From Ligustrum vulgare (lineage: Eukaryota; Streptophyta; Magnoliopsida; Lamiales; Oleaceae): a DNA stretch of 64,000 nucleotides. Shown here in pieces: positions 30,833-58,796 of this stretch. The notes beneath the pieces are model-generated. The model saw only the letters and a list, made by a program, of their open reading frames with translations, did no database searches and had not been told where the DNA came from. Location of the stretch: positions 37,492,929 through 37,556,928 of the forward strand of contig OY743190.1 in assembly GCA_963555705.1 (NCBI GenBank), read 5' to 3'. The position numbers and the translations under genes were made by a program. Position 1 is the stretch's first letter, and every line of letters starts with the position of its first letter.

Positions 30833-31105
30833 CACTTTTAGTGAACACATGGGGATATAATTGTAACTAGAGTAAGCATCCATGAAGGTTAGCATCTCAT
30901 GCCCTCGTTTTGAATCTACCAGTTGATCAATCCAAGGTAGATAGAAGTTGTCTTTTACACAGGTCTGGTTGACATTAGTAAAATAAATATACACTCTCAA
31001 TTTCTCACTTTCCTTGAGGACCACTACTAGATTGGACACCCACTTCGGGTATCTAGATTCCTCGATGAAGCCATTTTCCAATAGCTTCGACACATCTTCT
31101 TTCAA
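30833..31105 (-). pseudogene. Reverse transcriptase fragment of element B
   Basis: Residues VSKLLENGFIEESRYPKWVS, KLRVYIYFTNVNQTCVKD and FMDAYSSYNYIPM are the N-terminal half of a Ty3/gypsy RT. The frame ends where the LTR of element G begins, so the YxDD catalytic motif, RNase H and integrase are missing. Confidence 0.85.
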
Positions 31106-31943
31106 GGCTTCACACTACCCCGGGCACATAGGCCGTCGCTTCTACTTATACTGGGTGTTTTGGGTCAATCTGTAACTTGTGGCTAACCAACCATAGACCC
31201 ACTATATCATCATTTTTCCATGCGAATATGTCCAATTTTTGTCAAATGAAACTTTTTAGCATTTCCTTGAACACATGCACTAAGTCGTGTCCAATCCACG
31301 GCTCTGGTAAGATCATGGTATCAAACGGGAAGCACTCCAATTTTTTTAGCTGAAGTGGGGCGACATTCTACACCCATTATTCTTGGATCCAAATCAGATG
31401 GATCTTCTCATTCCTGCATTATGATATTCATTTCTTCTCTAAGTGTGGCACCCAATCATTGATGGTGTGAAGGTGGATCAGTCATCGCAACATCATTGAT
31501 CATGTTGACTATCTTATCTTGGGATTTTTCTATTGCATTTGTGTAGCAATCCCGGGATTCGGTTTGACTACTTCTAACTATTACTATATTATTTTCTATT
31601 CGGAACTTCGTGCAAATGTACCTTGTGTGACTCACAACACCAAGATCAATTAGACCTGGCCTTCCTATTGAGTCGTGGTATGAAGAGCTTTTGTCAAAAA
31701 CCAAGAGTTCCATATGTATCCTAGAGATAGTAGGGGCTTGCCCTACTTCTGTCATTAGGATTATGGAACCTCTGGTACCAAATAGTACCCAGTAAAGCTA
31801 TAGATAGGGTGTGGACCCGGAATTAGTAGGGTATCAATGCCCATCTTATCATATGTCGCCCCATAAATCACGTTCACTAATGCTCCATTGTCTACAAACA
31901 TCCATGACATGCCATTTTTACCATCCACTATGTGGATTACCAA
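31106..31943 (-). pseudogene. Aspartic protease region of element B
   Basis: The minus strand at 31943-31761 has MSWMFVDNGALVNVIY, the protease active site with DNGA in place of DTGA. The fold continues in 31755-31456 (FDKSSSYHDSIGRPGLIDLG). Stops and frame changes separate the pieces; 31106-31455 is degenerate linker to RT. Confidence 0.75.
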
Positions 31944-32016: not shown

Positions 32017-33061
32017 TCACATTGGTAGGCTCCTTAGCCTCCCTGATATACTGCCTCTAAGAGTTGTTGGTACTACCCCTTGGTGTGGCCCTTCAAAGAT
32101 GGTGTTGATCTCATGGATTGGTGGATGATTTGGAGAAAGATATACGTTCTTGATATTTTTATCAGGTACTAGAGCTTTGTTTCTGTCATTGCTCATATCT
32201 CTCAAATGATTGTTGTTCCCTCCTCTCTGAGTATTCCTTTTGTTATTCCAGCGAACAGTTACATTGTGCCTTTGATTTGACCAATGTGGGTTTCCCCTAT
32301 TCTAGGTTCAATTGCCTCCTCCTTTCCTTTCATTTTCTATCTATTCCTAACATTTGCACATCTCTACAGTCATCTGTTGCATGCCCATAGAATCTGTGGT
32401 AGGCACAATATAGCTCTGTCATCGGCTATTTTCTATTCTGGCTTGTGCTTGCTCCTTTCGAAGTGAGACAAGAGCTGCAATTGGAAGCACGAAGTGCAAG
32501 TTTGAAATAGCGTCAATGATTTTGGGTACATAACTTGATCCAAACCCTGGGAAAGGGCATGAACCACTTCCATGACTATTTTCGGATAGGTTTTTGTTTC
32601 CTCCATTGGCTTTAGATTGATTTTCAGTGTTATAACGCTCTTGGGGTGACCATCTCTGGCCCGTGTCATCTCTTCCAAGAGGATTTCCTCTTTCATTAAG
32701 TTTAATAGAGCATTGCAATATCTAGGTTTTCAACTACAGACATCTCTCCAGAACATGCTCACCATGTACAAACCTCCTTTCAGAGCGAAAAACATTTATT
32801 CCTCTGTTATATTTTCGTAGTTGTGCATTTCTTCTGTGAATCGGGATACGTAACTTTTTCAGTTACTCATTTTTTCCCTGCCTCATATCTTGCAAGTGAT
32901 GGACTGAAAGTTTCCTAGATCTCAATGATACAAAACAATTTTTGAAGGCTGTTTTCAAGTCCTCCAAACTAGGAATGCTTCCAAGTAGAAGCTTCTTGTA
33001 CAATCGTATGACATTCCCTTCAAGAGTTAATGCAAAGGCGTTGTATTTGAGGGTAAGGGTA
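32017..33061 (-). pseudogene. C-terminal gag of element B with CHHC zinc knuckle
   Basis: Minus-strand gag remnant. CAYHRFYGHATDDC (about 32413-32372) is a C-X2-H-X4-H-X4-C knuckle typical of the Tat clade. Upstream, GSIPSLEDLKTAF (near 32969-32931) and VTLTLKYNAFALTLEG at the right edge are gag core. The gag is interrupted at 33061 by insertion of element H and resumes at 48212. Confidence 0.8.
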
Positions 33062-33342
33062 TGTAGCGACCAAGAATTTTTACGCGATTAATAATTATTT
33101 TAATAGAAAATCGTGTCGCTACTATTTCACCCATTTTTATTAAGTAACGCCGCGACGTATTCGTATAGCCAAGTCAAGAAATAATCGAGATCGTTCGATT
33201 TTAAATTAAATTCCGAATTTCTAAAAAATATCTCCATTCTCTTGATTTAAAGTATATTAAGTCCAAGTACTTAATTCAATGTTATCCCAATATTTATTTA
33301 TACAAAAATTATTTTTATTATTGAAATTAAGAAAATATATGC

Positions 33343-33850
33343 AAGCATGAGAGGTTCCATTATATATAATAATTATGAGAATCTTAATTTAATAAATATG
33401 GAAAAGTATATGAATGGTTGATAGACTCCATTATATGTAATCATGAAGAGCATAATATTTGTATAAATATGGAAAAGTATATGAATGAATTATATACTCC
33501 ATTATATGTAATCATGAAGAGCATAATATTTGTATAAATATGGAAAAGTATATGAATGATTGATAAGACTCCATTATATGTAATCATGAAGAGCATAATA
33601 TTTGTATAAATATGGAAAAGTATATGAATTAATTATATACTCCATTATATATAATCATGAAGAGCATAATATTTGTATAAATATGGAAAAGTATATGAAT
33701 GATTTATATACTCCATTATATATAATCATGAAGAGCATAATAATTGTATAAATATGGAAAAGTATATGAATGATTGATAGACTCCATTATATATAATCAT
33801 GAAGAGCATATTATTTGTATAAATATGGAAAAGTATATGAATGGTGCTTT
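33343..33850 (+). repeat. 71-bp tandem repeat in the element H LTR
   Basis: Seven units with period 71, each containing ATATGGAAAAGTATATGAAT, TCCATTATAT and AATCATGAAGAGCATAAT. The array lies upstream of the TATA-like box, where U3 enhancer repeats would sit. The same array recurs at about 40001-40508 and 46658-47165. Confidence 0.9.
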
Positions 33851-33923
33851 ACTTTAAGAAAATGATGTGTTAAAATTAATAGAATTGAATGATTATGTTT
33901 ACAATATGCCAACTTTATACATC

Positions 33924-33931
33924 TATTTAAA
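33924..33931 (+). promoter_or_regulatory. TATA-like box of the element H LTR
   Basis: TATTTAAA followed by pyrimidine-rich sequence with ACACACAACTCTACACAT, plausible for a plant transcription start. Conserved in LTR 2 and LTR 3. Confidence 0.5.
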
Positions 33932-34069
33932 CCCATCTCTTTTACACACAACTCTACACATATACACTTATTTCCAATCTCTTGACAAAATCCACAAGTA
34001 AGAGAAATTCAAGGTGGTCAAGAAAGTTTTGGTCCATTTACTACTACACTTCATTTTAATCTTTTAAAA

Positions 34070-34390
34070 GGTAAGTATATCTTATGTTTTTATGAAAAGT
34101 AAGTATGTTTTTATGAAAGGTAAATATACCTTATGTTTTTATGAAAAGTAAGTATGTTTTTATGAAAGGTATTACCTTATGTTTTTATGAAAAGTAAGTA
34201 TGTTTTTATGAAAGGTAAATACACCTTATGTTTTTAAGAAAAGTAAGTATGTTTTTATGAAAAGTAAAATACATTATGTTTTTAAGAAAAGTAAGTATGT
34301 TTTTATGAAAAGTAAAATACATTATGTTTTTAAGAAAAGTAAGTATGTTTTTATGAAAAGTAAATATACCTTATGTTTTTACGAAAATGT
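34070..34390 (+). repeat. ~49-bp tandem repeat in the element H LTR
   Basis: Units alternate CTTATGTTTTTATGAAAAG and TAAGTATGTTTTTATGAAAG, period about 49, downstream of the TATA-like box, so they would be transcribed. Also present at about 40728-41048 and 47385-47705. Confidence 0.88.
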
Positions 34391-34900
34391 TTGGATCATT
34401 GCTATGAAATCAATCTCACAAGATTGCTATGGGTCTCATATGATATGTTTATGATTATGCTAAGGGGACCGGAGTTTAGTAGCGCTACACATAAGAATTC
34501 TTGCCATAAAAGTTCGGTAAAATTCTTGTGTCTCTCTTTGTTTATGAGGATTTCGATCATATCCTATGTTATGATGAAAATGATCTATATGCTTTCAAAA
34601 GAAAATTATGCTTGGTATACTTACTGGGATTTTATAAATCTCACTCCACGATATTTACCATTTTCAGATAATTGAAGGTTCGAGGCGGTCAACATGGAAG
34701 TGGCAAAAGTGGTTAAGATTGATGAGATAATTATGTTGAACTTTATGTAAGAAAATTATGTTCTATTTTTATTCACAAATTAAATTATGGGATTCTAATT
34801 ACTCTTTTGAATAATTTTACATTACTATTTAAGTCTAGATAATATGATATGAGTCACTTTTAGTGGCACTCGAATGGTCGAGAATTCGGGTCGTCACAGT

Positions 34901-34912
34901 TGGTATCAGAGC
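34901..34912 (+). other. Primer-binding site of element H, copy 1
   Basis: TGGTATCAGAGC, four bases after LTR 1. It is a perfect tRNA-iMet type PBS, confirming that these long repeats are LTRs. Confidence 0.93.
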
Positions 34913-36970
34913 AAGTTATACTTTTCTGTAGACTCCTTAAATCATTTCAAAATATTTCTACAAGAAATTGCAATTAATCTATTTTTAATTTCAGTTAAAG
35001 TAATTAATTTTCTTCATATTTTACATCTCTTGGAAAAAAAATGTTTATGCATGTACAGTAAAGCAGTAGGTTACTGTTCGGTGAACAGTAACCGGGACAC
35101 TGTTCACATGAATAGTACTCGTGACGGTCACTGTTCATCATTTAAAAAAAATTTGTGTTCGGTGAACAGTGCATTTACTATTCAAAAAAAAAAAATAAAA
35201 AAAAAAAATTAACTATTGATTTTGTCGTGATGGAGAAATATGAATGGATATACTTTTAAGTCTCTTATCACTTTAGACCTAACTTTATGTATTTGAAAAA
35301 TTTTCTTAGTTGTCTAAATTATTATTTAAGTAAATCATTAGCAAATTGTTATTATGAATCAGATTTTGGTCTAATCATTTATGCAAATTTTATTTTGAAT
35401 AACCAAATTATTTTATTTGGTATTATATTAAATTGGGCTCAATCATGTATGAAAATTTTAATTGGGCTAAGTAAATTACTACATGTATTGATAGTGTATC
35501 AATTGGGCCAAATCTCATGTAAAGATTCAAAAATGGTTAATGAATTTTTTCTAAGAAATAGACCATTATTTAATTATGAAAATTTTAACTCATCAATACG
35601 CTACGCCACCTTCCACGTTTTGACTCCTCGAACCAGGTATGTTATGTATAATAGCAATTACATGGCATTTATGATTATATTGAAGCATGTTAAGTATGAA
35701 ATATTCATATGTTATGAATCTTTATGTGTTACACATAATATACATGTCAAGTATGATATAAATTGATAGAAGACTCAATTTTTTTTATTCTTTTCAATGT
35801 AGAATCATGAGACAGAGAGGATATTTATATGAATTTTGGTTCATATTAAGCTTAGTAAGATTGACTCAATTAGAAATTAAGTTGGGTTGTAACTTTTGCC
35901 CAAAATATATGGAATAATATATTAAACAAACAAAATTAATAATGAATTCGTACAATAATTTATCCCTTTATCACTACCTTTGTGTAAAAACAAGGGAAAA
36001 ACTGTGGATGGTTATTAGTACTTCCTCTTCAAGTTTCAATTTTCGGTTCAATAATTTATCCCTTTATCACTACCTTTGCTTAAAAGCAAGGAAAAACTGT
36101 GGATGATTATTGGTACCACTCTTCAAGTTTCAATTCTGAAAAAAAATTCGGAAAGAAAGAAAGAGAACGGGTGTTGAGCATAATGGGAATAATATGACTT
36201 AAGAATGATTTTCAAAATAATTGTTGTCCTTGAGTTTAGAAATGATGAACCTTAAATGGACTTTGCATAATTGATTTTAGACATGGCACTAAGTATGAGA
36301 AGTCAACAGAAATGATTAGAAATATGTTCAGATTATCTATCATTTAGATTTAATGAGAAATAGCGAGCCAATTTTATGAAGTTTTATGAGATGTTAAGAT
36401 TATAAGTGATGTGGTTTTAATGAGACTTTTATGAGAAGCATTATGAAGTTAGAGATTTAAAGATTTGGTTATTGGGAATTAAGTAATGGATATTATGTTG
36501 AGTAAGTGAATCATGCCTCTATATTGAAGAGAAATTTATTATGAACTTTGGCCTTGTGATTAAATTTTGGGAATATGATTTATGACTTATAAATATAAGT
36601 ATGAGTAATCTTTTGAGCCAATTAAGGTATGGAAGGAAGTGATATTGTGATATTGAAAAATATGATTTGAAATTGTTATGTTGAGGAATTATGAATTGAA
36701 TTATGGGATATTTTTTTTGATATATTGAAGTGTTGGAATCGTTTTCAATATTTTTAGATCATTGTGATCAAATGTGGAGTTATTTATTATTGTGAGTTAT
36801 GAAGTATGCTTATGGTTTGGGATAAGTCCAAATTACAAGGGAGACTTTGTCCAGAATTTTATCATTTGGAATTAAGAGCATGATATGATAAGCATCCACT
36901 AAAGAAATTAAGGTTAGACATGCAAGTTCATTTACATCACAAACGAGATTTAGTAGATGATAGCAGAGAT

Positions 36971-36976
36971 TTTATT
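36971..36976 (-). promoter_or_regulatory. Possible polyadenylation signal for the antisense genes, copy 1
   Basis: AATAAA on the minus strand, about 325 bases downstream of the LOG-family stop codon. The same hexamer lies at 43628-43633 in copy 2. Position is plausible, but the motif is common in AT-rich DNA. Confidence 0.35.
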
Positions 36977-37077
36977 ATTTTCTCATAAGGAGAACATACA
37001 AAGAGTCACACTGGAAAAGAAATACATGAAACACGCAAAAGCAAAAGAAAGCAACATGGGAAATTCCTCAAATTGAG

Positions 37078-37290
37078 AGATGTGTTTCCGGAGTAGCCGT
37101 ATCCTACCACCTCTGACCTTTTGAGGAAATAAAGAAACCTTCAAAGAGGTGTGTTTCGAGAGTAAGAATACTCCGTAATCTACCACCTGGAACCTTTGAG
37201 GTACACACAAGATTTAAACATTAAGGAAATCCTAGGAAATTAGAGGGGTGTCTCGAGAGTAAGAATACTCCGTACTCTACCCCCACCTAT
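37078..37290 (-). repeat. Three hairpin-forming repeats downstream of the LOG-family gene, copy 1
   Basis: Three imperfect units (about 37078-37125, 37145-37200, 37241-37290), each with GTGT(T)TC, a GAGTA/TACTC-type mini stem (loop AGAA in two of them) and a TCTACC(A/C)CC end that can pair with the GGTG start. They lie between the LOG-family stop and the possible polyA signal. Repeated in copy 2 at about 43735-43947. Confidence 0.7.
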
Positions 37291-37298
37291 TCTAAGAT

Positions 37299-37952
37299 TC
37301 ATAAAGTTAAGTTTACATTAACCGGACTCCATTTTCGCTTGATTCCCCTTCCTTGCGACCAATCTATCTTAACCCCTGCTGGATCTTGTATTGAGATATA
37401 TGACTGCAGCTTATCCAGTAGTTCATCAATAGTAGGAGCAGAAATAAGGAGCCTTCTGGAAAATGGAGAGATGAATCCCTGTTCCACAGCATAATCAAGA
37501 AAGGTTAACAAACCATCAAAGAAATTGTTAACATTCAGAAGCCCAATAGGCTTAGTATGGAGATCTAGTTGAGCCCACGAGGTAATGTTAAAGATTTCTT
37601 CTAAGGTACCAAAACCTCCGGGCAGGGCTATAAAGGCATCAGAACCATATAGCATACAAGTTATGCGTTCATGGATGGATAAGGTTTGAACTTCATGCCC
37701 TCGTGTTTTGCCTGCAACATCTACCAAAGGGACAGGTATGACACCGATTACTTTTGATTTCTCTGCAAGAGCAGATTGGGAAACACAACCCATTAGACCA
37801 CTGCTACCACCCCCATACACAAGAGTGATACCTTTTTCCCCCAGTTTCTTTCCAAGATCTACGGCCGCTTCTAGATAACTGAAGCCTTTCCCCACTTTTG
37901 ATCCACAAAATACACAAATAGTTTTGATCTGTCGAAGTTTTGGTGCTTCCAT
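37299..37952 (-). CDS. LOG-like: LOG-family cytokinin-activating enzyme carried by element H, copy 1
   Basis: 217 aa, the usual length for plant LONELY GUY proteins, which release active cytokinin bases by hydrolysing cytokinin nucleoside 5'-monophosphates in the cytosol. Visible motifs: ICVFCGS (12-18), YGGGSSGLMG (46-55), HER (94-96), DAFIALPGGFGTLEE (105-119, the phosphate/active-site PGGxGTxxE signature) and TSWAQLDLHTKPIGLLNV (124-141). The catalytic Arg (R96) and Glu (E119) are kept; the usual Lys-Ala-Glu-Met after that Arg is instead ITCM. The C-terminus has a basic extension (GRGIKRKW). There is no intron, whereas plant LOG genes normally have several, so it was captured from a spliced transcript. 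It is antisense to the LTRs, with TTTAAATAG 75 bases upstream of ATG. It is identical to the second copy at 43956-44609. Confidence 0.9.
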   Translation of the reverse strand: MEAPKLRQIKTICVFCGSKVGKGFSYLEAAVDLGKKLGEKGITLVYGGGSSGLMGCVSQSALAEKSKVIGVIPVPLVDVAGKTRGHEVQTLSIHERITCMLYGSDAFIALPGGFGTLEEIFNITSWAQLDLHTKPIGLLNVNNFFDGLLTFLDYAVEQGFISPFSRRLLISAPTIDELLDKLQSYISIQDPAGVKIDWSQGRGIKRKWSPVNVNLTL

Positions 37953-38026
37953 CTTTGATAGTATAGAAGAGAAAACTTACGAAGAAGATGTGATTTTGGG
38001 ATGCCTGAACTATGAAATATGTTTGG

Positions 38027-38035
38027 CTATTTAAA
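38027..38035 (-). promoter_or_regulatory. TATA-like box upstream of the LOG-family gene, copy 1
   Basis: TTTAAATAG on the minus strand, within a short GGCT/AGCC palindrome, 75 bases before the ATG at 37952. The same nonamer lies before the Cys4 gene. The copy 2 equivalent is 44684-44692. Confidence 0.5.
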
Positions 38036-38248
38036 GCCGGAAAAATTTACTGTTTTTGATTGATTATGAAAAAGTAAAGATTTACTTTTGACAAAATCGG
38101 CCAACTTTTGACTGTTTTACCAAAGATATCACCTTTCGGTGATTTATTTCCAGCTTTATCAAAACTCGAGAAAGGAAAATATATTTTATTTCCAAAACGC
38201 GTGAAAGAAAACAGCAAAATATTTTAAATGTGTATCAAGAGATTTACC

Positions 38249-38848
38249 TTATATCATTGTTGAACTGCCAGAAGCCTCATTTTGTAAAACAGACTGGCAA
38301 ACAGGATCTTTTGCTATTATATTTTGGAGACTACAACGATTTTTGTCCTCGTTAAACTGAGCGTATAAGGAGAGAAGTTCACGTTGCACATAACCACTTG
38401 GGTGCGTCTCAAGAGTCAGTCGAATATCATCCAAAGACTCCTTACTCAGTCCACCCTTTATGAATTTGATTTTATCATCCCGATTAGTAGAAGAATATCC
38501 TACTGTTTTGCAACGAGTATCACAGTTCCAACGAGCACATTTGTAGCAACCATTCAGCCTTTTTGCTCTTCGTTTCTTTGCGAAAGTGCTTTTGCCTAAA
38601 CCAGGCATGTGCTTTGGAAATGTCATAGGTAATTCACCAGATAGTCGAACCTTTGCTTCGATCAACCAGCGAACATCTTCTGAAACACCATGAGCCATCA
38701 GCAACCTCAATCTTTCGAGTCTTATTCGATAAATTTTCCTCAGATCATTCATTGGAAGACTGGAATAATACTTGCGAATGTTTGTAAGAATGATATCCAT
38801 GTTTTTGATGGATCTAACCTCTTCCCAGCATGAACTATTTAAAAGCAT
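38249..38848 (-). CDS. Cys4 arginine-rich protein, viral NABP/suppressor-like, copy 1
   Basis: 199 aa, intact. The N-terminal half is Arg/Leu-rich and helical (LRKIYRIRLERLRLLMAHG, 36-54). A basic run KKRRAKR (91-97) leads directly into C101-X2-C104-X4-C109-X3-C113, followed by VGYSSTNRDDKIKFIKGG (116-133). A basic patch running into a cysteine finger, then a conserved hydrophobic-basic segment, is the layout of the small cysteine-rich nucleic-acid-binding proteins of flexiviruses (carlavirus type), several of which suppress RNA silencing. I infer RNA/DNA binding; silencing suppression is a hypothesis. The real start may be Met17 (MDIILTNIRKYY), because TTTTAAATAG overlaps the first codons. 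It is antisense to the LTRs and upstream of the LOG-family gene with a 296-base gap, so the two could share transcripts. Identical to copy 2. Confidence 0.6.
   Translation of the reverse strand: MLLNSSCWEEVRSIKNMDIILTNIRKYYSSLPMNDLRKIYRIRLERLRLLMAHGVSEDVRWLIEAKVRLSGELPMTFPKHMPGLGKSTFAKKRRAKRLNGCYKCARWNCDTRCKTVGYSSTNRDDKIKFIKGGLSKESLDDIRLTLETHPSGYVQRELLSLYAQFNEDKNRCSLQNIIAKDPVCQSVLQNEASGSSTMI
38835..38844 (-). promoter_or_regulatory. TATA-like box of the Cys4 gene, copy 1
   Basis: TTTTAAATAG on the minus strand, 35 bases before the Met17 codon (ATG at 38800). If this is the promoter, translation must start at Met17 rather than at 38848. The copy 2 equivalent is 45492-45501. Confidence 0.4.
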
Positions 38849-39719
38849 TAAGGATCGGAGGGAATCCGCGTGATATTGATTCCAGCAAGAAAGCGCGGAA
38901 TAGAATAATGGAAAAGAGGGAACAAGAGTTTATGCGCCGTTTACTTTCTTGATAAAAGGAAGATTTGATGATGACGGGATTTGAGATATGGAATATTTTC
39001 TTGGATTTTTGGGTACTGATATTTTGATATAATAATCAAGGTATAGAAATAATACGGGGATACGTGAAAGTGAAATAATGACTGTATTGAATCAGGATTA
39101 ATAAGTTTGTGCAAGTGAAAGGAATACCTTACGGGAAATGTTATGATATTTGAGTTAAGAATTTTAATTATTTGGGAGATATTTGTTTATTGAATTTTGC
39201 AGAAATTTTGGGTTACAAATATTGGAAAGATAAACTGATGATTATGTTGATATGTGAATAACATGTTTGGGTATATTACATAGAGAATATTCAGGTAATC
39301 GTTTTAATTATTTTGGGATATTTGGTGATAAGAAGAAATGACAAATTATTATGGTATGATATGTTAGTAAAGATTTATTGAAATTTTAGAGATATTAATA
39401 CGAATATTTGAGGTTACATGATACGATGATAAGTGACAGGTTACATGAGTACTACAAGATATGATGAAATATCACATACGATTGGAAATTTTCATTTTGA
39501 GTTAGAATTTATGAGTAGACACATATGTCTATTATTGATAAGAAAAATACATGTTCTTAAGAAAACAAAGAGATGATTTAGTAAAAGTCCAGTGGGTTAG
39601 ATATTATAATGATGAGATTACTAAGAGAAAGAAGAGAAGAGATTCTGATTAAGTGTTCAGAAATCATAAGATCAAGTAAGTTTAATTTCGAGGACGAAAT
39701 TATTTTAAGGGGGTAAGTT
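38849..39719 (+). other. 3' internal region and PPT of element H, copy 1
   Basis: AT-rich, without a supported gene. It ends in TTTCGAGGACGAAATTATTT followed by TAAGGGGGTAAGTT, the polypurine tract (about 39705-39715) directly before LTR 2. This PPT context resembles that of Tekay/Del-type Ty3 chromoviruses, a plausible source of the mobility proteins. A promoter for the Cys4 gene, if upstream of 38848, would lie here. Confidence 0.65.
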
Positions 39720-41554
39720 TGTAGCGACCAAGAATTTTTACGCGATTAATAATTATTTTAATAGAAAATCGTGTCGCTACTATTTCACCCATTTTTATTA
39801 AGTAACGCCGCGACGTATTCGTATAGCCAAGTCAAGAAATAATCGAGATCGTTCGATTTTAAATTAAATTCCGAATTTCTAAAAAATATCTCCATTCTCT
39901 TGATTTAAAGTATATTAAGTCCAAGTACTTAATTCAATGTTATCCCAATATTTATTTATACAAAAATTATTTTTATTATTGAAATTAAGAAAATATATGC
40001 AAGCATGAGAGGTTCCATTATATATAATAATTATGAGAATCTTAATTTAATAAATATGGAAAAGTATATGAATGGTTGATAGACTCCATTATATGTAATC
40101 ATGAAGAGCATAATATTTGTATAAATATGGAAAAGTATATGAATGAATTATATACTCCATTATATGTAATCATGAAGAGCATAATATTTGTATAAATATG
40201 GAAAAGTATATGAATGATTGATAAGACTCCATTATATGTAATCATGAAGAGCATAATATTTGTATAAATATGGAAAAGTATATGAATTAATTATATACTC
40301 CATTATATATAATCATGAAGAGCATAATATTTGTATAAATATGGAAAAGTATATGAATGATTTATATACTCCATTATATATAATCATGAAGAGCATAATA
40401 ATTGTATAAATATGGAAAAGTATATGAATGATTGATAGACTCCATTATATATAATCATGAAGAGCATATTATTTGTATAAATATGGAAAAGTATATGAAT
40501 GGTGCTTTACTTTAAGAAAATGATGTGTTAAAATTAATAGAATTGAATGATTATGTTTACAATATGCCAACTTTATACATCTATTTAAACCCATCTCTTT
40601 TACACACAACTCTACACATATACACTTATTTCCAATCTCTTGAAAAAATCCACAAGTAAGAGAAATTCAAGGTGGTCAAGAAAGTTTTGGTCCATTTACT
40701 ACTACACTTCATTTTAATCTTTTAAAAGGTAAGTATATCTTATGTTTTTATGAAAAGTAAGTATGTTTTTATGAAAGGTAAATATACCTTATGTTTTTAT
40801 GAAAAGTAAGTATGTTTTTATGAAAGGTATTACTTTATGTTTTTATGAAAAGTAAGTATGTTTTTATGAAAGGTAAATACACCTTATGTTTTTAAGAAAA
40901 GTAAGTATGTTTTTATGAAAAGTAAAATACATTATGTTTTTAAGAAAAGTAAGTATGTTTTTATGAAAAGTAAAATACATTATGTTTTTAAGAAAAGTAA
41001 GTATGTTTTTATGAAAAGTAAATATACCTTATGTTTTTACGAAAATGTTTGGATCATTGCTATGAAATCAATCTCACAAGATTTCTATGGGTCTCATATG
41101 ATATGTTTATGATTATGCTAAGGGGACCGGAGTTTAGTAGCGCTACACATAAGAATTCTTGCCATAAAAGTTCGGTAAAATTCTTGTGTCTCTCTTTGTT
41201 TATGAGGATTTCGATCATATCCTATGTTATGATGAAAATGATCTATATTCTTTCAAAAGAAAATTATGCTTGGTATACTTACTGGGATTTTATAAATCTC
41301 ACTCCACGATATTTACCATTTTCAGATAATTGAAGGTTCGAGGCGGTCAACATGGAAGTGGCAAAAGTGGTTAAGATTGATGAGATAATTATGTTGAACT
41401 TTATGTAAGAAAATTATGTTCTATTTTTATTCACAAATTAAATTATGGGATTCTAATTATTCTTTTGAATAATTTTACATTACTATTTAAGTCTAGATAA
41501 TATGATATGAGTCACTTTTAGTGGCACTCGAATGGTCGAGAATTCGGGTCGTCA
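39720..41554 (+). repeat. LTR 2 (middle LTR) of element H
   Basis: 1835 bases, shared by the two internal regions. By eye it carries four private substitutions relative to LTR 1 and LTR 3 (about 40644, 40834, 41084, 41248). It contains the same tandem arrays. Confidence 0.93.
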
Positions 41555-41558
41555 CAGT

Positions 41559-41570
41559 TGGTATCAGAGC
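41559..41570 (+). other. Primer-binding site of element H, copy 2
   Basis: TGGTATCAGAGC four bases after LTR 2, identical to copy 1. Confidence 0.93.
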
Positions 41571-43955
41571 AAGTTATACTTTTCTGTAGACTCCTTAAAT
41601 CATTTCAAAATATTTCTACAAGAAATTGCAATTAATCTATTTTTAATTTCAGTTAAAGTAATTAATTTTCTTCATATTTTACATCTCTTGGAAAAAAAAT
41701 GTTTATGCATGTACAGTAAAGCAGTAGGTTACTGTTCGGTGAACAGTAACCAGGACACTGTTCACATGAATAGTACTCGTGACGGTCACTGTTCATCATT
41801 TAAAAAAAATTTGTGTTCGGTGAACAGTGCATTTACTATTCAAAAAAAAAAAATAAAAAAAAAAATTAACTATTGATTTTGTCGTGATGGAGAAATATGA
41901 ATGGATATACTTTTAAGTCTCTTATCACTTTAGACCTAACTTTATGTATTTGAAAAATTTTCTTAGTTGTCTAAATTATTATTTAAGTAAATCATTAGCA
42001 AATTGTTATTATGAATCAGATTTTGGTCTAATCATTTATGCAAATTTTATTTTGAATAACCAAATTATTTTATTTGGTATTATATTAAATTGGGCTCAAT
42101 CATGTATGAAAATTTTAATTGGGCTAAGTAAATTACTACATGTATTGATAGTGTATCAATTGGGCCAAATCTCATGTAAAGATTCAAAAATGGTTAATGA
42201 ATTTTTTCTAAGAAATAGACCATTATTTAATTATGAAAATTTTAACTCATCAATACGCTACGCCACCTTCCACGTTTTGACTCCTCGAACCAGGTATGTT
42301 ATGTATAATAGCAATTACATGGCATTTATGATTATATTGAAGCATGTTAAGTATGAAATATTCATATGTTATGAATCTTTATGTGTTACACATAATATAC
42401 ATGTCAAGTATGATATAAATTGATAGAAGACTCAATTTTTTTTATTCTTTTCAATGTAGAATCATGAGACAGAGAGGATATTTATATGAATTTTGGTTCA
42501 TATTAAGCTTAGTAAGATTGACTCAATTAGAAATTAAGTTGGGTTGTAACTTTTGCCCAAAATATATGGAATAATATATTAAACAAACAAAATTAATAAT
42601 GAATTCGTACAATAATTTATCCCTTTATCACTACCTTTGTGTAAAAACAAGGGAAAAACTGTGGATGGTTATTAGTACTTCCTCTTCAAGTTTCAATTTT
42701 CGGTTCAATAATTTATCCCTTTATCACTACCTTTGCTTAAAAGCAAGGAAAAACTGTGGATGATTATTGGTACCACTCTTCAAGTTTCAATTCTGAAAAA
42801 AAATTCGGAAAGAAAGAAAGAGAACGGGTGTTGAGCATAATGGGAATAATATGACTTAAGAATGATTTTCAAAATAATTGTTGTCCTTGAGTTTAGAAAT
42901 GATGAACCTTAAATGGACTTTGCATAATTGATTTTAGACATGGCACTAAGTATGAGAAGTCAACAGAAATGATTAGAAATATGTTCAGATTATCTATCAT
43001 TTAGATTTAATGAGAAATAGCGAGCCAATTTTATGAAGTTTTATGAGATGTTAAGATTATAAGTGATGTGGTTTTAATGAGACTTTTATGAGAAGCATTA
43101 TGAAGTTAGAGATTTAAAGATTTGGTTATTGGGAATTAAGTAATGGATATTATGTTGAGTAAGTGAATCATGCCTCTATATTGAAGAGAAATTTATTATG
43201 AACTTTGGCCTTGTGATTAAATTTTGGGAATATGATTTATGACTTATAAATATAAGTATGAGTAATCTTTTGAGCCAATTAAGGTATGGAAGGAAGTGAT
43301 ATTGTGATATTGAAAAATATGATTTGAAATTGTTATGTTGAGGAATTATGAATTGAATTATGGGATATTTTTTTTGATATATTGAAGTGTTGGAATCGTT
43401 TTCAATATTTTTAGATCATTGTGATCAAATGTGGAGTTATTTATTATTGTGAGTTATGAAGTATGCTTATGGTTTGGGATAAGTCCAAATTACAAGGGAG
43501 ACTTTGTCCAGAATTTTATCATTTGGAATTAAGAGCATGATATGATAAGCATCCACTAAAGAAATTAAGGTTAGACATGCAAGTTCATTTACATCACAAA
43601 CGAGATTTAGTAGATGATAGCAGAGATTTTATTATTTTCTCATAAGGAGAACATACAAAGAGTCACACTGGAAAAGAAATACATGAAACACGCAAAAGCA
43701 AAAGAAAGCAACATGGGAAATTCCTCAAATTGAGAGATGTGTTTCCGGAGTAGCCGTATCCTACCACCTCTGACCTTTTGAGGAAATAAAGAAACCTTCA
43801 AAGAGGTGTGTTTCGAGAGTAAGAATACTCCGTAATCTACCACCTGGAACCTTTGAGGTACACACAAGATTTAAACATTAAGGAAATCCTAGGAAATTAG
43901 AGGGGTGTCTCGAGAGTAAGAATACTCCGTACTCTACCCCCACCTATTCTAAGAT
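41571..43955 (+). other. Leader and noncoding internal region of element H, copy 2
   Basis: Matches 34913-37298 almost base for base. Differences seen: a G-to-A change at about 41750 and shorter A-runs near 41850. The inverted repeat, the 95-base duplication and the three hairpin repeats are all present. Confidence 0.8.
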
Positions 43956-44609
43956 TCATAAAGTTAAGTTTACATTAACCGGACTCCATTTTCGCTTGAT
44001 TCCCCTTCCTTGCGACCAATCTATCTTAACCCCTGCTGGATCTTGTATTGAGATATATGACTGCAGCTTATCCAGTAGTTCATCAATAGTAGGAGCAGAA
44101 ATAAGGAGCCTTCTGGAAAATGGAGAGATGAATCCCTGTTCCACAGCATAATCAAGAAAGGTTAACAAACCATCAAAGAAATTGTTAACATTCAGAAGCC
44201 CAATAGGCTTAGTATGGAGATCTAGTTGAGCCCACGAGGTAATGTTAAAGATTTCTTCTAAGGTACCAAAACCTCCGGGCAGGGCTATAAAGGCATCAGA
44301 ACCATATAGCATACAAGTTATGCGTTCATGGATGGATAAGGTTTGAACTTCATGCCCTCGTGTTTTGCCTGCAACATCTACCAAAGGGACAGGTATGACA
44401 CCGATTACTTTTGATTTCTCTGCAAGAGCAGATTGGGAAACACAACCCATTAGACCACTGCTACCACCCCCATACACAAGAGTGATACCTTTTTCCCCCA
44501 GTTTCTTTCCAAGATCTACGGCCGCTTCTAGATAACTGAAGCCTTTCCCCACTTTTGATCCACAAAATACACAAATAGTTTTGATCTGTCGAAGTTTTGG
44601 TGCTTCCAT
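43956..44609 (-). CDS. LOG-like: LOG-family cytokinin-activating enzyme, copy 2
   Basis: Encodes the same 217 residues as 37299-37952, including the PGGFGTLEE active-site signature and the catalytic Arg and Glu. No substitution was seen in the protein. The TTTAAATAG box is at 44684-44692 and the hairpin repeats follow the stop codon. Two intact doses in one locus mean that any expressed activity would be duplicated. Confidence 0.9.
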   Translation of the reverse strand: MEAPKLRQIKTICVFCGSKVGKGFSYLEAAVDLGKKLGEKGITLVYGGGSSGLMGCVSQSALAEKSKVIGVIPVPLVDVAGKTRGHEVQTLSIHERITCMLYGSDAFIALPGGFGTLEEIFNITSWAQLDLHTKPIGLLNVNNFFDGLLTFLDYAVEQGFISPFSRRLLISAPTIDELLDKLQSYISIQDPAGVKIDWSQGRGIKRKWSPVNVNLTL

Positions 44610-44905
44610 CTTTGATAGTATAGAAGAGAAAACTTACGAAGAAGATGTGATTTTGGGATGCCTGAACTATGAAATATGTTTGGCTATTTAAAGCCGGAAA
44701 AATTTACTGTTTTTGATTGATTATGAAAAAGTAAAGATTTACTTTTGACAAAATCGGCCAACTTTTGACTGTTTTACCAAAGATATCACCTTTCGGTGAT
44801 TTATTTCCAGCTTTATCAAAACTCGAGAAAGGAAAATATATTTTATTTCCAAAACGCGTGAAAGAAAACAGCAAAATATTTTAAATGTGTATCAAGAGAT
44901 TTACC

Positions 44906-45505
44906 TTATATCATTGTTGAACTGCCAGAAGCCTCATTTTGTAAAACAGACTGGCAAACAGGATCTTTTGCTATTATATTTTGGAGACTACAACGATTTT
45001 TGTCCTCGTTAAACTGAGCGTATAAGGAGAGAAGTTCACGTTGCACATAACCACTTGGGTGCGTCTCAAGAGTCAGTCGAATATCATCCAAAGACTCCTT
45101 ACTCAGTCCACCCTTTATGAATTTGATTTTATCATCCCGATTAGTAGAAGAATATCCTACTGTTTTGCAACGAGTATCACAGTTCCAACGAGCACATTTG
45201 TAGCAACCATTCAGCCTTTTTGCTCTTCGTTTCTTTGCGAAAGTGCTTTTGCCTAAACCAGGCATGTGCTTTGGAAATGTCATAGGTAATTCACCAGATA
45301 GTCGAACCTTTGCTTCGATCAACCAGCGAACATCTTCTGAAACACCATGAGCCATCAGCAACCTCAATCTTTCGAGTCTTATTCGATAAATTTTCCTCAG
45401 ATCATTCATTGGAAGACTGGAATAATACTTGCGAATGTTTGTAAGAATGATATCCATGTTTTTGATGGATCTAACCTCTTCCCAGCATGAACTATTTAAA
45501 AGCAT
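44906..45505 (-). CDS. Cys4 arginine-rich protein, viral NABP/suppressor-like, copy 2
   Basis: Encodes the same 199 residues as 38249-38848 (basic run 91-97, cysteines 101, 104, 109, 113). Same upstream box and the same 296-base gap to the LOG-family gene. Preservation of both frames in both copies is consistent with very recent duplication and does not by itself prove selection. Confidence 0.6.
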   Translation of the reverse strand: MLLNSSCWEEVRSIKNMDIILTNIRKYYSSLPMNDLRKIYRIRLERLRLLMAHGVSEDVRWLIEAKVRLSGELPMTFPKHMPGLGKSTFAKKRRAKRLNGCYKCARWNCDTRCKTVGYSSTNRDDKIKFIKGGLSKESLDDIRLTLETHPSGYVQRELLSLYAQFNEDKNRCSLQNIIAKDPVCQSVLQNEASGSSTMI

Positions 45506-46376
45506 TAAGGATCGGAGGGAATCCGCGTGATATTGATTCCAGCAAGAAAGCGCGGAATAGAATAATGGAAAAGAGGGAACAAGAGTTTATGCGCCGTTTA
45601 CTTTCTTGATAAAAGGAAGATTTGATGATGACGGGATTTGAGATATGGAATATTTTCTTGGATTTTTGGGTACTGATATTTTGATATAATAATCAAGGTA
45701 TAGAAATAATACGGGGATACGTGAAAGTGAAATAATGACTGTATTGAATCAGGATTAATAAGTTTGTGCAAGTGAAAGGAATACCTTACGGGAAATGTTA
45801 TGATATTTGAGTTAAGAATTTTAATTATTTGGGAGATATTTGTTTATTGAATTTTGCAGAAATTTTGGGTTACAAATATTGGAAAGATAAACTGATGATT
45901 ATGTTGATATGTGAATAACATGTTTGGGTATATTACATAGAGAATATTCAGGTAATCGTTTTAATTATTTTGGGATATTTGGTGATAAGAAGAAATGACA
46001 AATTATTATGGTATGATATGTTAGTAAAGATTTATTGAAATTTTAGAGATATTAATACGAATATTTGAGGTTACATGATACGATGATAAGTGACAGGTTA
46101 CATGAGTACTACAAGATATGATGAAATATCACATACGATTGGAAATTTTCATTTTGAGTTAGAATTTATGAGTAGACACATATGTCTATTATTGATAAGA
46201 AAAATACATGTTCTTAAGAAAACAAAGAGATGATTTAGTAAAAGTCCAGTGGGTTAGATATTATAATGATGAGATTACTAAGAGAAAGAAGAGAAGAGAT
46301 TCTGATTAAGTGTTCAGAAATCATAAGATCAAGTAAGTTTAATTTCGAGGACGAAATTATTTTAAGGGGGTAAGTT
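45506..46376 (+). other. 3' internal region and PPT of element H, copy 2
   Basis: Equivalent of 38849-39719, with the polypurine tract TTTTAAGGGGGTAAGTT just before LTR 3. No gene is supported. Confidence 0.65.
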
Positions 46377-48211
46377 TGTAGCGACCAAGAATTTTTACGC
46401 GATTAATAATTATTTTAATAGAAAATCGTGTCGCTACTATTTCACCCATTTTTATTAAGTAACGCCGCGACGTATTCGTATAGCCAAGTCAAGAAATAAT
46501 CGAGATCGTTCGATTTTAAATTAAATTCCGAATTTCTAAAAAATATCTCCATTCTCTTGATTTAAAGTATATTAAGTCCAAGTACTTAATTCAATGTTAT
46601 CCCAATATTTATTTATACAAAAATTATTTTTATTATTGAAATTAAGAAAATATATGCAAGCATGAGAGGTTCCATTATATATAATAATTATGAGAATCTT
46701 AATTTAATAAATATGGAAAAGTATATGAATGGTTGATAGACTCCATTATATGTAATCATGAAGAGCATAATATTTGTATAAATATGGAAAAGTATATGAA
46801 TGAATTATATACTCCATTATATGTAATCATGAAGAGCATAATATTTGTATAAATATGGAAAAGTATATGAATGATTGATAAGACTCCATTATATGTAATC
46901 ATGAAGAGCATAATATTTGTATAAATATGGAAAAGTATATGAATTAATTATATACTCCATTATATATAATCATGAAGAGCATAATATTTGTATAAATATG
47001 GAAAAGTATATGAATGATTTATATACTCCATTATATATAATCATGAAGAGCATAATAATTGTATAAATATGGAAAAGTATATGAATGATTGATAGACTCC
47101 ATTATATATAATCATGAAGAGCATATTATTTGTATAAATATGGAAAAGTATATGAATGGTGCTTTACTTTAAGAAAATGATGTGTTAAAATTAATAGAAT
47201 TGAATGATTATGTTTACAATATGCCAACTTTATACATCTATTTAAACCCATCTCTTTTACACACAACTCTACACATATACACTTATTTCCAATCTCTTGA
47301 CAAAATCCACAAGTAAGAGAAATTCAAGGTGGTCAAGAAAGTTTTGGTCCATTTACTACTACACTTCATTTTAATCTTTTAAAAGGTAAGTATATCTTAT
47401 GTTTTTATGAAAAGTAAGTATGTTTTTATGAAAGGTAAATATACCTTATGTTTTTATGAAAAGTAAGTATGTTTTTATGAAAGGTATTACCTTATGTTTT
47501 TATGAAAAGTAAGTATGTTTTTATGAAAGGTAAATACACCTTATGTTTTTAAGAAAAGTAAGTATGTTTTTATGAAAAGTAAAATACATTATGTTTTTAA
47601 GAAAAGTAAGTATGTTTTTATGAAAAGTAAAATACATTATGTTTTTAAGAAAAGTAAGTATGTTTTTATGAAAAGTAAATATACCTTATGTTTTTACGAA
47701 AATGTTTGGATCATTGCTATGAAATCAATCTCACAAGATTGCTATGGGTCTCATATGATATGTTTATGATTATGCTAAGGGGACCGGAGTTTAGTAGCGC
47801 TACACATAAGAATTCTTGCCATAAAAGTTCGGTAAAATTCTTGTGTCTCTCTTTGTTTATGAGGATTTCGATCATATCCTATGTTATGATGAAAATGATC
47901 TATATGCTTTCAAAAGAAAATTATGCTTGGTATACTTACTGGGATTTTATAAATCTCACTCCACGATATTTACCATTTTCAGATAATTGAAGGTTCGAGG
48001 CGGTCAACATGGAAGTGGCAAAAGTGGTTAAGATTGATGAGATAATTATGTTGAACTTTATGTAAGAAAATTATGTTCTATTTTTATTCACAAATTAAAT
48101 TATGGGATTCTAATTATTCTTTTGAATAATTTTACATTACTATTTAAGTCTAGATAATATGATATGAGTCACTTTTAGTGGCACTCGAATGGTCGAGAAT
48201 TCGGGTCGTCA
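46377..48211 (+). repeat. LTR 3 of element H
   Basis: 1835 bases, near identical to LTR 1. It is followed by AAGGGTA at 48212-48218, repeating the seven bases before LTR 1. Confidence 0.93.
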
Positions 48212-48967
48212 AAGGGTAACTCCAACCATTTCCATGCTTGCACGATAATTCAAGAGATGATCATCAGGGTCACCTCTTCTAGAATATTTGATAATTCATT
48301 ACATCTCAAAGTCAAATGGAATGGGATATTGGTGAATACCTTCAGAGGAAGGGCTGATCTCTTTGTTATCATATATTTCATATGAATGAATTATGGTCCG
48401 ACATTTTTTTCAATGTGGGGATGTGCTTGGCCATACGGTTGCTGGTTAGGTCTATCTTATGAGGTGACAAAGTCTAACCATAATATGGCCTTGAATAAGT
48501 AGGTGGAATTCCCTGTGCTTGAGAGTGAGCTTCCGCAACCCTTCTCTTACACCTGTTTCTAGGCACTTGCGCTTGAGGATGAGCTTCTTCAGCCCTCCTT
48601 TCATACTTATTTCTAGGTTCTTATGTTTGAGGACAGGCTTCTATATGGTATTCAGGGGGGAAAGTTTCGATTCATCTTCTTCTGCATGAGACTGCATGGA
48701 GTCTATTTCCACATCACTTGAAGGTATGAGGTAATAATTTGAAGTGTCTATACCAGAGGATCGATTCCTTGGTTTATTTCATAGATGATGCGGAGATATA
48801 GTAGGATAATTTGCATTTATCATCTCATCATGTAAGCATTCATGGCTATTTTTTGCACAATTTGTTGGCTTTGCTTCTCTACCATCTGTGCCGCTAGGTG
48901 AATCATATTTCTCATTAAATGTTGACTTCATGCCTGCATGGTGGATCATACCAAGATACCTCATCAT
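48212..48967 (-). pseudogene. N-terminal gag of element B, right of the element H insertion
   Basis: Minus-strand reading near 48270-48212 gives RRGDPDDHLLNYRASMEMVGV, which continues in frame into TLTLKYNAF at 33061 once element H and one repeat copy are removed. Further right is N-terminal gag leader with stops (open frame 48967-48779, no domain). This was the disrupted target gene. Confidence 0.75.
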
Positions 48968-55676: not shown

Positions 55677-56575
55677 ATTTGAGCTGACACATATTGAAGA
55701 GTAAATTTTTTGAGCAGTGAACTCGGTAATCTCTGAATTCATCAAGAAAACATTGTTCATATAGTTATTTGGTCCTTTGAAATTCTTCATGAAGAGATTC
55801 GTCAAGCTCAATTCCGTAGCAATCATCTTCATTTTGGTAGAAGTCAAAGTTTGCTTCTGAGCTGGTCTCAGATGAATCTTGAACTAAAGATTTTGAAGCG
55901 TTTTTAGCAAAAGCATCAATTTTATTTGCTAAAATTGCATTTCTTCAGGGTTAGTGCATTTTGCAAGGAGTATTAATAACCTACATTTTTCTGCTAGGAA
56001 ATCATCATGTGAATCTTGTAGTTTCTTTGTGGGGAATCCTTCATTTTTTTTAATTGAATCCAAGAATTAACTGGCTTAGGACAACAGTTTTGTTGACACC
56101 ACCATCCTAGCTTAGTGGTACCAGGGAGGCCTTTCGAATTCATAAATTCCATAGGTCCATGGTTCGAAACCCCCTGGGGACGCGTCCACCTCGCGTGGAA
56201 CAAATCCACACCATGCGGTGGACAATTCGCTGTGTTGGCCGAGCCATAAGTACCTCAAAGACTGGTGGCGTCAACAAGTTTGTTTCATGGAATTTGGACC
56301 ACCATTTTACTTTGATTTTTCTAACAATCTCTTTAGGACTAAAAGAATTATTTGTATCTTGAAAAATAAAAAAGTCACAGCAGAGGATCCATGAGACGTT
56401 AAAATTGAGGACAAATTGAAGCAAAACATTTTCTTGAGGCTTAAGGAGTGATTTTGCCTCATTTTTTAAATGATTGAATCCTTGAAGAGAGAGACCGAGT
56501 AAAATATTCTCTTCAAGTCCGAAATAATTAAACTAATTTTGAAACCATTTTGGAAAATTATATTGACAATTTTGG
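55677..56575 (-). pseudogene. Pararetroviral C-terminal region, copy 1
   Basis: Degenerate coding sequence with VKWWSKFHETN (minus strand, about 56319-56287) and NCCPKPVNSWIQLKK (about 56090-56046). It matches the plus strand at 63286-64000 in reverse, forming an inverted repeat. It carries the SINE-like insertion, which the other arm lacks. Confidence 0.7.
56094..56271 (+). mobile_element. tRNA-derived SINE candidate
   Basis: 178 bases absent from the homologous viral arm at 63570-63590. It carries RNA polymerase III box A (TAGCTTAGTGGT, 56108-56119) and box B (GGTTCGAAACC, 56161-56171) at tRNA-like spacing. It is flanked by 12-base direct repeats differing by one base shift, CAACAGTTTTGT (56082-56093) and CAACAAGTTTGT (56272-56283). 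There is no obvious A or T tail. Confidence 0.7.
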
Positions 56576-57079
56576 TGAAATAGGATAAACCAAGAACGAT
56601 TGACTGGCCTAAAAAGAAAACATTAAACCTGGAATCTTAATAATCCAAGAAATTCAAGTGAGAAGAGAAACTTTCTCCTTTTTCAAGGTTCATCTTTTTC
56701 TCTAGCCAAGGGTGTTGTCCCCAGTCGTCATATGGAAACACTTTGCAAATTGAACATTTTGAAAAATCAATATGTTGAGGATTTGTTTATTTTGAGTGTG
56801 AATAATAATCGCTAATCTTGTTTTGAGAATGATTTTTCATATAATTCATGGGGTTTTTGAAGAGTGGAAGGTAAAAAATTGAAAATTTGGAGGAAAAATA
56901 TCCTTTAAGCACTCATTAAGATCAGAGTACTTTTCAACCCAAGAGGGTTCCATATTGAAGATAGAAAAATAATTATTTTTAACAAATTATTGAAAAGGAT
57001 TTTTATTGATTTCTGGATGTTTTCCAGATCCAGCTTGAACAACCTTTTTGTAGTTTAAAGGTTTTGGCTTTTCTGGGGT
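56576..57079 (-). pseudogene. Degenerate pararetroviral linker
   Basis: Between the RNase H region and the C-terminal arm. Several frames hold short viral-like pieces (VVQAGSGKHPEINKNPF near 57050-57000; MEPSWVEKYSD near 56955-56920). No intact frame. Confidence 0.5.
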
Positions 57080-57902: not shown

Positions 57903-58062
57903 GTAATTGACGCACCCTAAAAATCTCTGTAGACAAGTTTTATCAAGAATTTGATCAAGAAATTTATTAGTAAAATCTAAACTTCTTTGAATTGGTGTAA
58001 TAGTTCCTTGAGAAATCGCATGTTCAAGAAAACGAATACTTGTTTGACAAAGAATGATTTTC

Positions 58063-58721: not shown

Positions 58722-58796
58722 TTCTGTTTCAATTTTTTGAAGAAATTGAGAAATTTCTTGTTTATTTGAAGAATTTTGTAATTGATCATTAATCCT

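Follow-up and report, generated by a model that had tools for sequence, protein, structure and literature searches.

The window analysed here, a stretch of 64,000 nucleotides from Ligustrum vulgare, contains an LTR retrotransposon that carries a LOG-fold gene and an NABP-like zinc-finger gene on the minus strand. The locus raises the question of what these two genes are and what they might do for the element and its host.

That the element is an LTR retrotransposon is confirmed by LTRs starting with TG, a target-site duplication, a primer-binding site after the 5′ LTR and a polypurine tract before the 3′ LTR (Table 1); the latter two lie on the plus strand and agree with the architecture described in the first-pass annotation. 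The arrangement is LTR–internal region–LTR–internal region–LTR, with three LTRs and two internal regions, and a single 5-bp GGGTA duplication brackets the entire array. The LTRs, previously called perfect, are real and only near-perfect, with 99.73–99.89% identity among the three. They run from TGTAGC to GTCACA and are 1837 bp long; the earlier figure of 1835 bp is explained by the last LTR, which ends in CAAA instead of CACA. Whole units are 99.9% identical, and the internal regions differ by one transition and one indel in an A-run, both outside the cargo genes. The insertion looks very young and likely is, since the two outer LTRs differ at just two sites, and the intact frames of this copy therefore prove little.

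The statement that gag and pol are missing held for the frames scanned. No Pfam match to either exceeded its cut-off in 10 scanned frames and two non-cargo frames, and the best tblastn match of gypsy pol/integrase in internal region 1 had an E value of only 0.13. Thus, the gag and pol coding of an autonomous Ty3/gypsy element was not detected in the frames scanned, nor was TRP28 (PF04195), the domain expected of a Retand-type element, in the frames scanned, both cargo genes among them. Each internal region contains, as previously noted, two intact antisense genes, with frames of 217 aa (LOG-fold) and 199 aa (NABP-like).

Table 1. Coordinates of the element and its cargo within the window
Feature	Position	Strand	Remarks
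Target-site duplication GGGTA, left	33057..33061		
LTR 1	33062..34898	+	1837 bp; tandem ~71-bp and ~48-bp repeats inside
Internal region 1	34899..39719		
Primer-binding site TGGTATCAGAGC	34901..34912	+	presumed match to the 3′ end of tRNA-iMet
LOG-fold gene, copy 1	37299..37952	-	217 aa; PF03641, 1.3e-33; AtLOG3 2a33, 4.7e-58; Foldseek rank 1, 2a33_B
VNVNLTL C-terminus, degenerate EAR-like alternating tail	37302..37322	-	copy 1
Basic KRK, candidate nuclear localisation signal	37332..37340	-	copy 1; by inference
NABP-like Cys4 gene, copy 1	38249..38800	-	183 aa from the conserved Met; ORF to 38848, 199 aa; PF05515, PF01623
Polypurine tract AAGGGGG, ahead of LTR 2	39707..39713	+	
LTR 2 (common to both units)	39720..41556	+	four private substitutions
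Internal region 2	41557..46376		
LOG-fold gene, copy 2	43956..44609	-	identical to copy 1
NABP-like gene, copy 2	44906..45457	-	identical to copy 1; ORF to 45505
LTR 3	46377..48213	+	terminus CAAA, not CACA
Target-site duplication GGGTA, right	48214..48218		

The domain search proposed as a check on the LOG-family call upheld it. In a Foldseek search, the structural model of the protein had 2a33_B as its first match (TMt 0.96), and TM-scores against canonical LOGs were 0.93–0.96 on the target. Besides the fold, the window protein has the PGGxGTxxE motif and keeps the catalytic pair R96 and E119 (Arg99 and Glu122 in CgLOG numbering). The adenine/prenyl pocket is altered, Ile97 replacing Lys100 and Asn122 replacing Glu125; the roles of these pocket and catalytic residues in characterised LOGs are taken from the available text of PMC4979012. 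Relatives show the same picture: Lys100 is kept in five and Glu125 in four of 115, compared with 114 of 114 rows for each residue in a control set that was recruited with LOG3 and is therefore biased to LOG3-like proteins. The substitutions are consistent (Lys to Met, Ile or Leu; Glu mostly to Gln or His), and the catalytic residues persist, Arg99 in 108 and Glu122 in 113 of the 115.

The LOG proteins analysed group in a single clade to the exclusion of LOG3-type LOGs: a 71-row tree splits 52 window-type sequences from 18 canonical ones with support of 97/97, LOG8 being one row of an otherwise LOG3-like canonical sampling. The root is unsure because the long branches of the canonical rows and the bacterial outgroup meet and the bootstrap is unsettled; the split itself is independent of root placement. 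A search of BFVD with the LOG model returned six matches at E 0.001, several of them unnamed, and gives no indication of a plant-virus origin, since the best was a phage LOG-family protein (5.7e-10). A scan of viral contigs with the LOG alignment detected one distant LOG, at 29% identity (L001). A possible promoter, TTTAAATAG, lies ~75 bp upstream of the LOG start.

The C-terminal tail of the LOG family, basic and ending in LxLxL, had escaped the earlier description. LxLxL, which is short and which we take to be the co-repressor-recruiting EAR pattern, stands at the extreme C-terminus of 91 of the 115 relatives and of none of the 114 LOG3-type proteins; its rate in shuffled tails is 0.0036. 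In most of the relatives analysed, basic residues precede it, and the ends follow the pattern LDLSLSL/LDLTLRL. Among the 90 relatives picked solely by a basic pair followed by 6–10 residues, the numbers with a hydrophobic residue at positions -1 to -7 are 89, 1, 90, 1, 90, 0 and 88. The strict pattern is absent from 24 of the 115 relatives and also from the window protein, whose VNVNLTL is shared in form by its closest relative, P0121. In the model, the tail has a pLDDT below 50 on a confident LOG fold. We infer that the tail may work as a nuclear localisation signal and an EAR motif that binds TOPLESS-type co-repressors.

The second cargo protein had been likened to the Cys4 proteins of flexiviruses, and Pfam bears this out: the 199-aa frame matches Viral_NABP (1.1e-07; 32.5 bits, cut-off 23) and Carla_C4 (7.6e-05; 23.1 bits, cut-off 20.9). 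Its start is likely the second Met, at 38800, because this residue is invariant in 43 aligned rows (the window and 42 relatives chosen from the 120 listed, truncated and over-long models excluded). The motif CX2CX4CX3C is full in 108 of the 120 relatives listed and incomplete in 12, and the AlphaFold model is poor (pLDDT 61). By family, the protein is predicted to bind nucleic acid, and it may blunt silencing as viral cysteine-rich proteins (CRPs) do; these are silencing suppressors, one of them also a transcription factor, according to the available text of PMC12172455. Two scans of viral contigs with the NABP found no relative. A LOG–NABP fusion protein made through an intron in the window was rejected despite donor- and acceptor-like sites between the frames, because the NABP frame ends in a stop codon ahead of the nearest donor.

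Neither cargo gene looks like a one-off capture, a possibility raised in the first-pass annotation; relatives of both are found in many plants. For the NABP, 413 of 471 candidates are relatives at E 0.01; they come from several plant orders, and the named hosts belong to the rosids and asterids. Four Orobanche gene models among the 120 NABP relatives listed also contain PF03641 and so join both genes. Reevesia accounts for 38 of the 120 LOG relatives listed, and these appear dispersed, since they lie on sequences of 16 different lengths. The sole locus recovered by scanning genome contigs with the NABP alignment (L002, 3.3 kb, from a contig catalogued under a bacterial MAG) has an integrase followed by the NABP gene in sense orientation and no LOG match over its whole length; consequently, the antisense orientation and the gene pair are not universal. 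Between the window and this distant copy, dN is 0.29 and dS 1.26, and the resulting dN/dS of ~0.23 shows that the NABP protein has evolved under constraint. An origin of the entire cassette DNA by capture from an L002-like element was rejected, as good alignment is confined to the NABP coding part (72% over 445 columns).

How the element may work can be outlined tentatively, with slightly more doubt than confidence: it would be a young LTR element with no detectable gag-pol, whose antisense genes encode a LOG-derived protein predicted to recruit co-repressors in the nucleus and a zinc-finger partner with predicted nucleic-acid binding. The tail of the former would allow nuclear entry and then recruitment of TOPLESS-type co-repressors, the partner would bind nucleic acid and possibly damp silencing, and both together would adjust transcription or silencing of the host or the element in favour of copying, gag-pol being supplied in trans by a relative. 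On these sequence features, the element would probably influence its host cell. A more far-reaching scenario seems rather doubtful to us: a captured hormone enzyme turned TOPLESS-recruiting nuclear repressor would be paired with a captured virus-type silencing suppressor, as a eudicot-wide module that reprograms host transcription and small-RNA defence.

The LOG-like protein could instead be a working cytokinin-activating enzyme, raised active cytokinin promoting division and transposition. The Pfam and PDB matches, the PGGxGTxxE motif and the catalytic Arg and Glu agree with this, as do four of the 115 relatives that have both pocket residues (P0161, P0212, P0236 and P0237). Against it, Lys100 is replaced in 110 and Glu125 in 111 of the 115 relatives, and both are replaced in the window protein. 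Alanine changes at crucial AMP-site and catalytic residues, save Ser19, are reported nearly to abolish activity, although the available text does not itemise these residues or name Glu125 among those changed; the prenyl site does vary naturally among bacterial LOGs, for example in MmLOG, so that a changed pocket is not proof of lost activity (PMC4979012). As it was worded, the earlier designation of a cytokinin-activating enzyme is unsupported: the pocket Lys and Glu are replaced, though the catalytic pair is kept. Their absence and the basic LxLxL tail of the family make this reading doubtful, and we regard it as unlikely; a LOG-derived protein recruiting co-repressors in the nucleus is the better inference. 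The kept catalytic residues nevertheless suggest that some enzyme activity may still be under selection, and the core likely still binds a nucleotide 5′-monophosphate with a different base. An N-glycosidase for nucleotides of another base, with the tail a mere nuclear address or stability signal, would account for conserved catalytic residues and phosphate-loop motif next to a consistently changed base pocket. It is nonetheless an improbable alternative, as the alternation at four tail positions (88–90 of 90 rows) matches a docking motif more closely than an address.

Two other explanations concern the element as a whole. The three-LTR array might have arisen in assembly from one insertion with two LTRs, as assemblers tend to mishandle repeats with units of 99.9% identity; the four substitutions of LTR 2 found in neither outer LTR, and the clean duplication around the array, make this quite unlikely. 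An artefact would leave the cargo finding unaffected. Alternatively, the genes may be chance captures that travel with the element and serve it in no way. Plant LTR elements are known to capture genes, as the available text of PMC7264820 has it, and intact frames are weak proof in so young an insertion. Such passive carriage is very unlikely in view of the hundreds of NABP relatives spread over several plant orders, the NABP dN/dS across a deep split, and the catalytic residues and tail conserved among LOG relatives.

Pathogens use EAR-type tails to steer plant co-repressors, and mobile elements would join them if the co-repressor-recruiting reading is true. Some plant models annotated as LOG or LOGL10 (P0125, P0180 and P0218 among them) may be genes of mobile elements and poor cytokinin enzymes. 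The available texts of PMC7264820 and PMC11963269 describe what accessory ORFs do in plant LTR retrotransposons as unknown or undetermined. Here, two cargo proteins of recognisable ancestry and a short conserved docking-like tail make function directly testable.

Gypsy elements with a LOG-type (YgdH) domain are already in print for Citrus and Populus (PMC9289625, citing Steinbauerova et al. 2011), so that the claim of no described LTR element is too broad. They share with the window element a LOG-type domain inside a plant LTR retrotransposon; their consensuses were found by reverse transcriptase, which was not detected here, and neither an NABP partner nor a changed pocket nor an EAR-like tail is mentioned in the available text, which is also silent on the orientation of the YgdH domain (PMC9289625). 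None of these three features was found in our literature search, although Steinbauerova et al. 2011 may describe more, and no paper was found on an LTR retrotransposon with LOG, lysine decarboxylase, carlavirus or NABP under those names, one of them a rare spelling. The internal regions of Retand-, Grande- and RIRE2-type elements likewise contain accessory ORFs in antisense, some of them nuclear or with predicted DNA binding, and some Retand elements are termed non-autonomous. According to the available texts, these ORFs sit between pol and the 3′ LTR of gag-pol elements and encode mainly TRP28, also SMC and other domains, none of which occurs in the window frames scanned (PMC11963269, PMC7264820).

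With the cysteine-rich proteins of betaflexiviruses and carlaviruses (PF05515, PF01623), the window NABP has in common a basic stretch followed by a Cys4 motif. It differs in being borne by a plant genome and retrotransposon, with ~183 aa and C-X2-C-X4-C-X3-C; the likeness is one of Pfam profile, and no other viral gene was seen adjoining it. Canonical plant LOGs (LOG3, At2g37210; LOG8, At5g11950) share the fold, PGGxGTxxE and catalytic Arg and Glu with the window protein, whereas window-type LOGs have the pocket Lys and Glu replaced and, in most relatives, a basic LxLxL tail. Canonical plant LOG genes have introns, unlike the uninterrupted LOG-fold frame of the window. Compared with EAR-motif repressors, window-type LOGs have the tail on a LOG enzyme fold, the window copy is degenerate and co-repressor binding is putative; common to both is a terminal pattern of the LDLSLSL/LDLTLRL type behind basic residues, as seen in the relatives of the window LOG.

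The window holds a single insertion with the order LTR-internal-LTR-internal-LTR, and one 5-bp duplication, GGGTA, bounds the whole three-LTR array (Table). PBS and PPT lie on the + strand and both cargo genes, a LOG-fold gene and an NABP-like Cys4 zinc-finger gene, on the - strand. The three LTRs measure 1837 bp each and differ pairwise at five (1-2), two (1-3) and five (2-3) positions; with only 2/1837 sites differing between the outer LTRs, the insertion is probably of recent date. Two differences separate the internal regions, both outside the cargo genes. Four substitutions in LTR 2 are absent from LTR 1 and LTR 3. Consequently, either the array has altered since it formed or it is not the product of a plain duplication of a single unit; the four substitutions hint that it arose through recombination with another copy. 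Each of the three LTRs contains two tandem arrays, possible promoter or enhancer repeats.

Features of the window and their positions
Feature	Position	Strand	Remarks
Three-LTR element	33062-48213		
Tandem arrays, LTR 1	33261-33914 and 34074-34412		~71-bp units and ~48-bp units
LTR 2	39720-41556		
Frame preceding gypsy pol	6579-7904		protease match only, below cut-off
Ty3/gypsy pol region	7816-10635	+	RT, RNase H and integrase domains in open frames
Aspartyl-protease fragment	22167-22655	-	
Stretch matching frame 6579-7904	30896-31785	-	E 7e-17
Broken frames, several	56143-62530	-	RT-like and zinc-knuckle stretches, judged by first residues; putative endogenous plant pararetrovirus

The Pfam scan took in fourteen references (4 + 10), one of them inside an LTR and two being the same frame, against a catalogue of 32 frames of at least 45 aa; only the two antisense cargo genes scored above a cut-off, and no gag-pol domain did. 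Searching internal region 1 with the window's gypsy pol and with the integrase of L002, a contig found with the NABP alignment, yielded a best E of 0.13. As a positive control, the L002 integrase recovered the window's own integrase with an E of 2.8e-56.

The closest solved structure by sequence to the LOG protein is AtLOG3 (2a33, E 4.7e-58), and the predicted model (pLDDT 87.7) matches 2a33_B with a TM of 0.96 on target. The search returned 7230 relatives at E 0.001 from 7568 candidates; the best 120 of these, with Xanthoceras, Diospyros, Reevesia, Diplodiscus, Populus, Primulina and Parasponia among the named hosts, formed the window-type set, and the 120 best matches to AtLOG3 the control set. 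Length filters of 195-260 aa (tail) and 190-260 aa (pocket) each left 115 window-type and 114 control rows. A 71-row subsample with the last 30 residues removed, comprising 52 window-type rows (window included), 18 canonical rows (LOG8 included) and one bacterial row, gave a tree in which window-type and canonical proteins separate with support 97/97, the bootstrap being unsettled and the branches at the root long.

The two sets differ at the C-terminus: a terminal LxLxL is found in 91/115 window-type rows versus 0/114 controls, and in 0.36% after shuffling of the last 30 residues. The 24 rows without the strict motif include truncated tails, near misses such as LDFSLSL and LNLTISL, three Xanthoceras rows described below, and P0121, which has the same tail as the window, VNVNLTL. 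So that rows would not be picked by the leucine motif itself, tails were also selected for two adjacent basic residues with 6-10 residues after them, and in the resulting 90 of 115 rows the hydrophobic counts at positions -1 to -7 were 89, 1, 90, 1, 90, 0 and 88.

The pocket residues, named after passages of PMC4979012 (CgLOG numbering), are each present in 114/114 LOG3-type rows (Ser19, Met96, His97, Arg99, Lys100, Glu121, Glu122, Glu125, Trp129). The 115 window-type rows retain Arg99 (108), Glu121 (112), Glu122 (113), Trp129 (114), Ser19 (108), Met96 (98) and His97 (67); Lys100 (5/115) and Glu125 (4/115) are rarely retained. The window protein itself has Ile at 96 and 100 and Asn at 125, and keeps Ser19, His97, Arg99, Glu121, Glu122 and Trp129. 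An alignment-free motif scan without length filter gave a similar picture: Arg in 103 and Lys in 8 of the 105 matching window-type rows (15/120 lacked the pattern), and both residues in 108/108 controls (12/120 lacked it).

Three Xanthoceras relatives (P0212, P0236, P0237) combine Lys100 and Glu125 with a basic tail that has no leucine repeat, making them candidates for an intermediate stage. P0212 and P0237, the two that entered the tree, are basal among the window-type rows, an order suggesting that the basic tail came first, and the leucine repeat and pocket change afterwards. Relative P0161 carries the leucine repeat together with both canonical pocket residues; thus, the two changes are not strictly coupled. 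The tree requires six changes for LxLxL (69 labelled rows) and two for the Lys state.

The NABP-like gene matches PF05515 and PF01623, both above the cut-off. Of 471 candidates from the protein search, 413 counted as relatives at E <=0.01; hosts named among the best 120 include Orobanche, an asterid, Populus and Xanthoceras, both rosids, and Acer. The full C-X2-C-X4-C-X3-C is present in 108 of these 120, and in an alignment of the window with 26 relatives picked from them (27 rows) cysteines 3 and 4 are invariant and cysteines 1 and 2 occur in at least 90%. Across a set of 43 rows, from which truncated or overly long models had been removed, the Met aligned with residue 17 of the window frame is invariant.

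L002 is a contig of 3330 bp assigned to a bacterial MAG (Candidatus Nomurabacteria). Its H2C2 and rve integrase domains are followed by an NABP gene of matching orientation and then by a PPT-like stretch. The NABP gene makes this retrotransposon contig look plant-like, and its presence in the MAG is likely contamination. Its NABP gene has no LOG partner: four LOG queries gave a best E of 0.032 on the contig, versus 3e-146 to 8e-69 on the window. Over 181 codons the NABP genes of the window and L002 differ at 54, 39 and 82 first, second and third positions (dN 0.29, dS 1.26, dN/dS ~0.23, rough because dS is high), a ratio that shows constraint on the protein.

Four Orobanche models among the best 120 of 413 NABP relatives also hold PF03641; they come from sequences of four different lengths, have the window's gene order (NABP then LOG) and lack the N-terminal half of LOG. 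The NABP and LOG matches P0014/P0141 lie on sequences of 8723 bases and P0012/P0220 on sequences of 4511 bases; given the equal sizes, each pair is probably on a shared contig. The antisense orientation was seen in the window only.

EAR motifs recruit TOPLESS-type co-repressors. The most economical reading of the sequences would be nuclear co-repressor recruitment by the LOG-derived protein coupled with nucleic-acid binding by the NABP protein. The former would have turned into a predicted nuclear protein with a tail putatively recruiting TOPLESS-type co-repressors; the latter would supply the predicted nucleic-acid binding and perhaps suppress silencing, by analogy with several viral CRPs described as silencing suppressors in sections of PMC12172455, where one viral CRP is also cited as a transcription factor causing hyperplasia. 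Retention of the catalytic residues suggests that nucleotide binding or an altered hydrolase activity of the LOG-derived protein may still matter.

Antisense ORFs are reviewed or surveyed in PMC7264820 and PMC11963269. The available portions of the former do not mention decarboxylase, cytokinin, nucleic acid binding or carlavirus, and those of the latter do not mention lysine decarboxylase, nucleic acid binding or LONELY GUY. Likewise, the accessible text of the plant LOG paper PMC11593424 makes no mention of retrotransposon, transposon or EAR, and excerpts of PMC6317226 none of YgdH. According to parts of PMC9289625, YgdH/LOG domains occur in Gypsy consensuses from two species of Citrus and, when a filter is switched off, from P. 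trichocarpa; that paper credits Steinbauerova 2011 with having reported them earlier.
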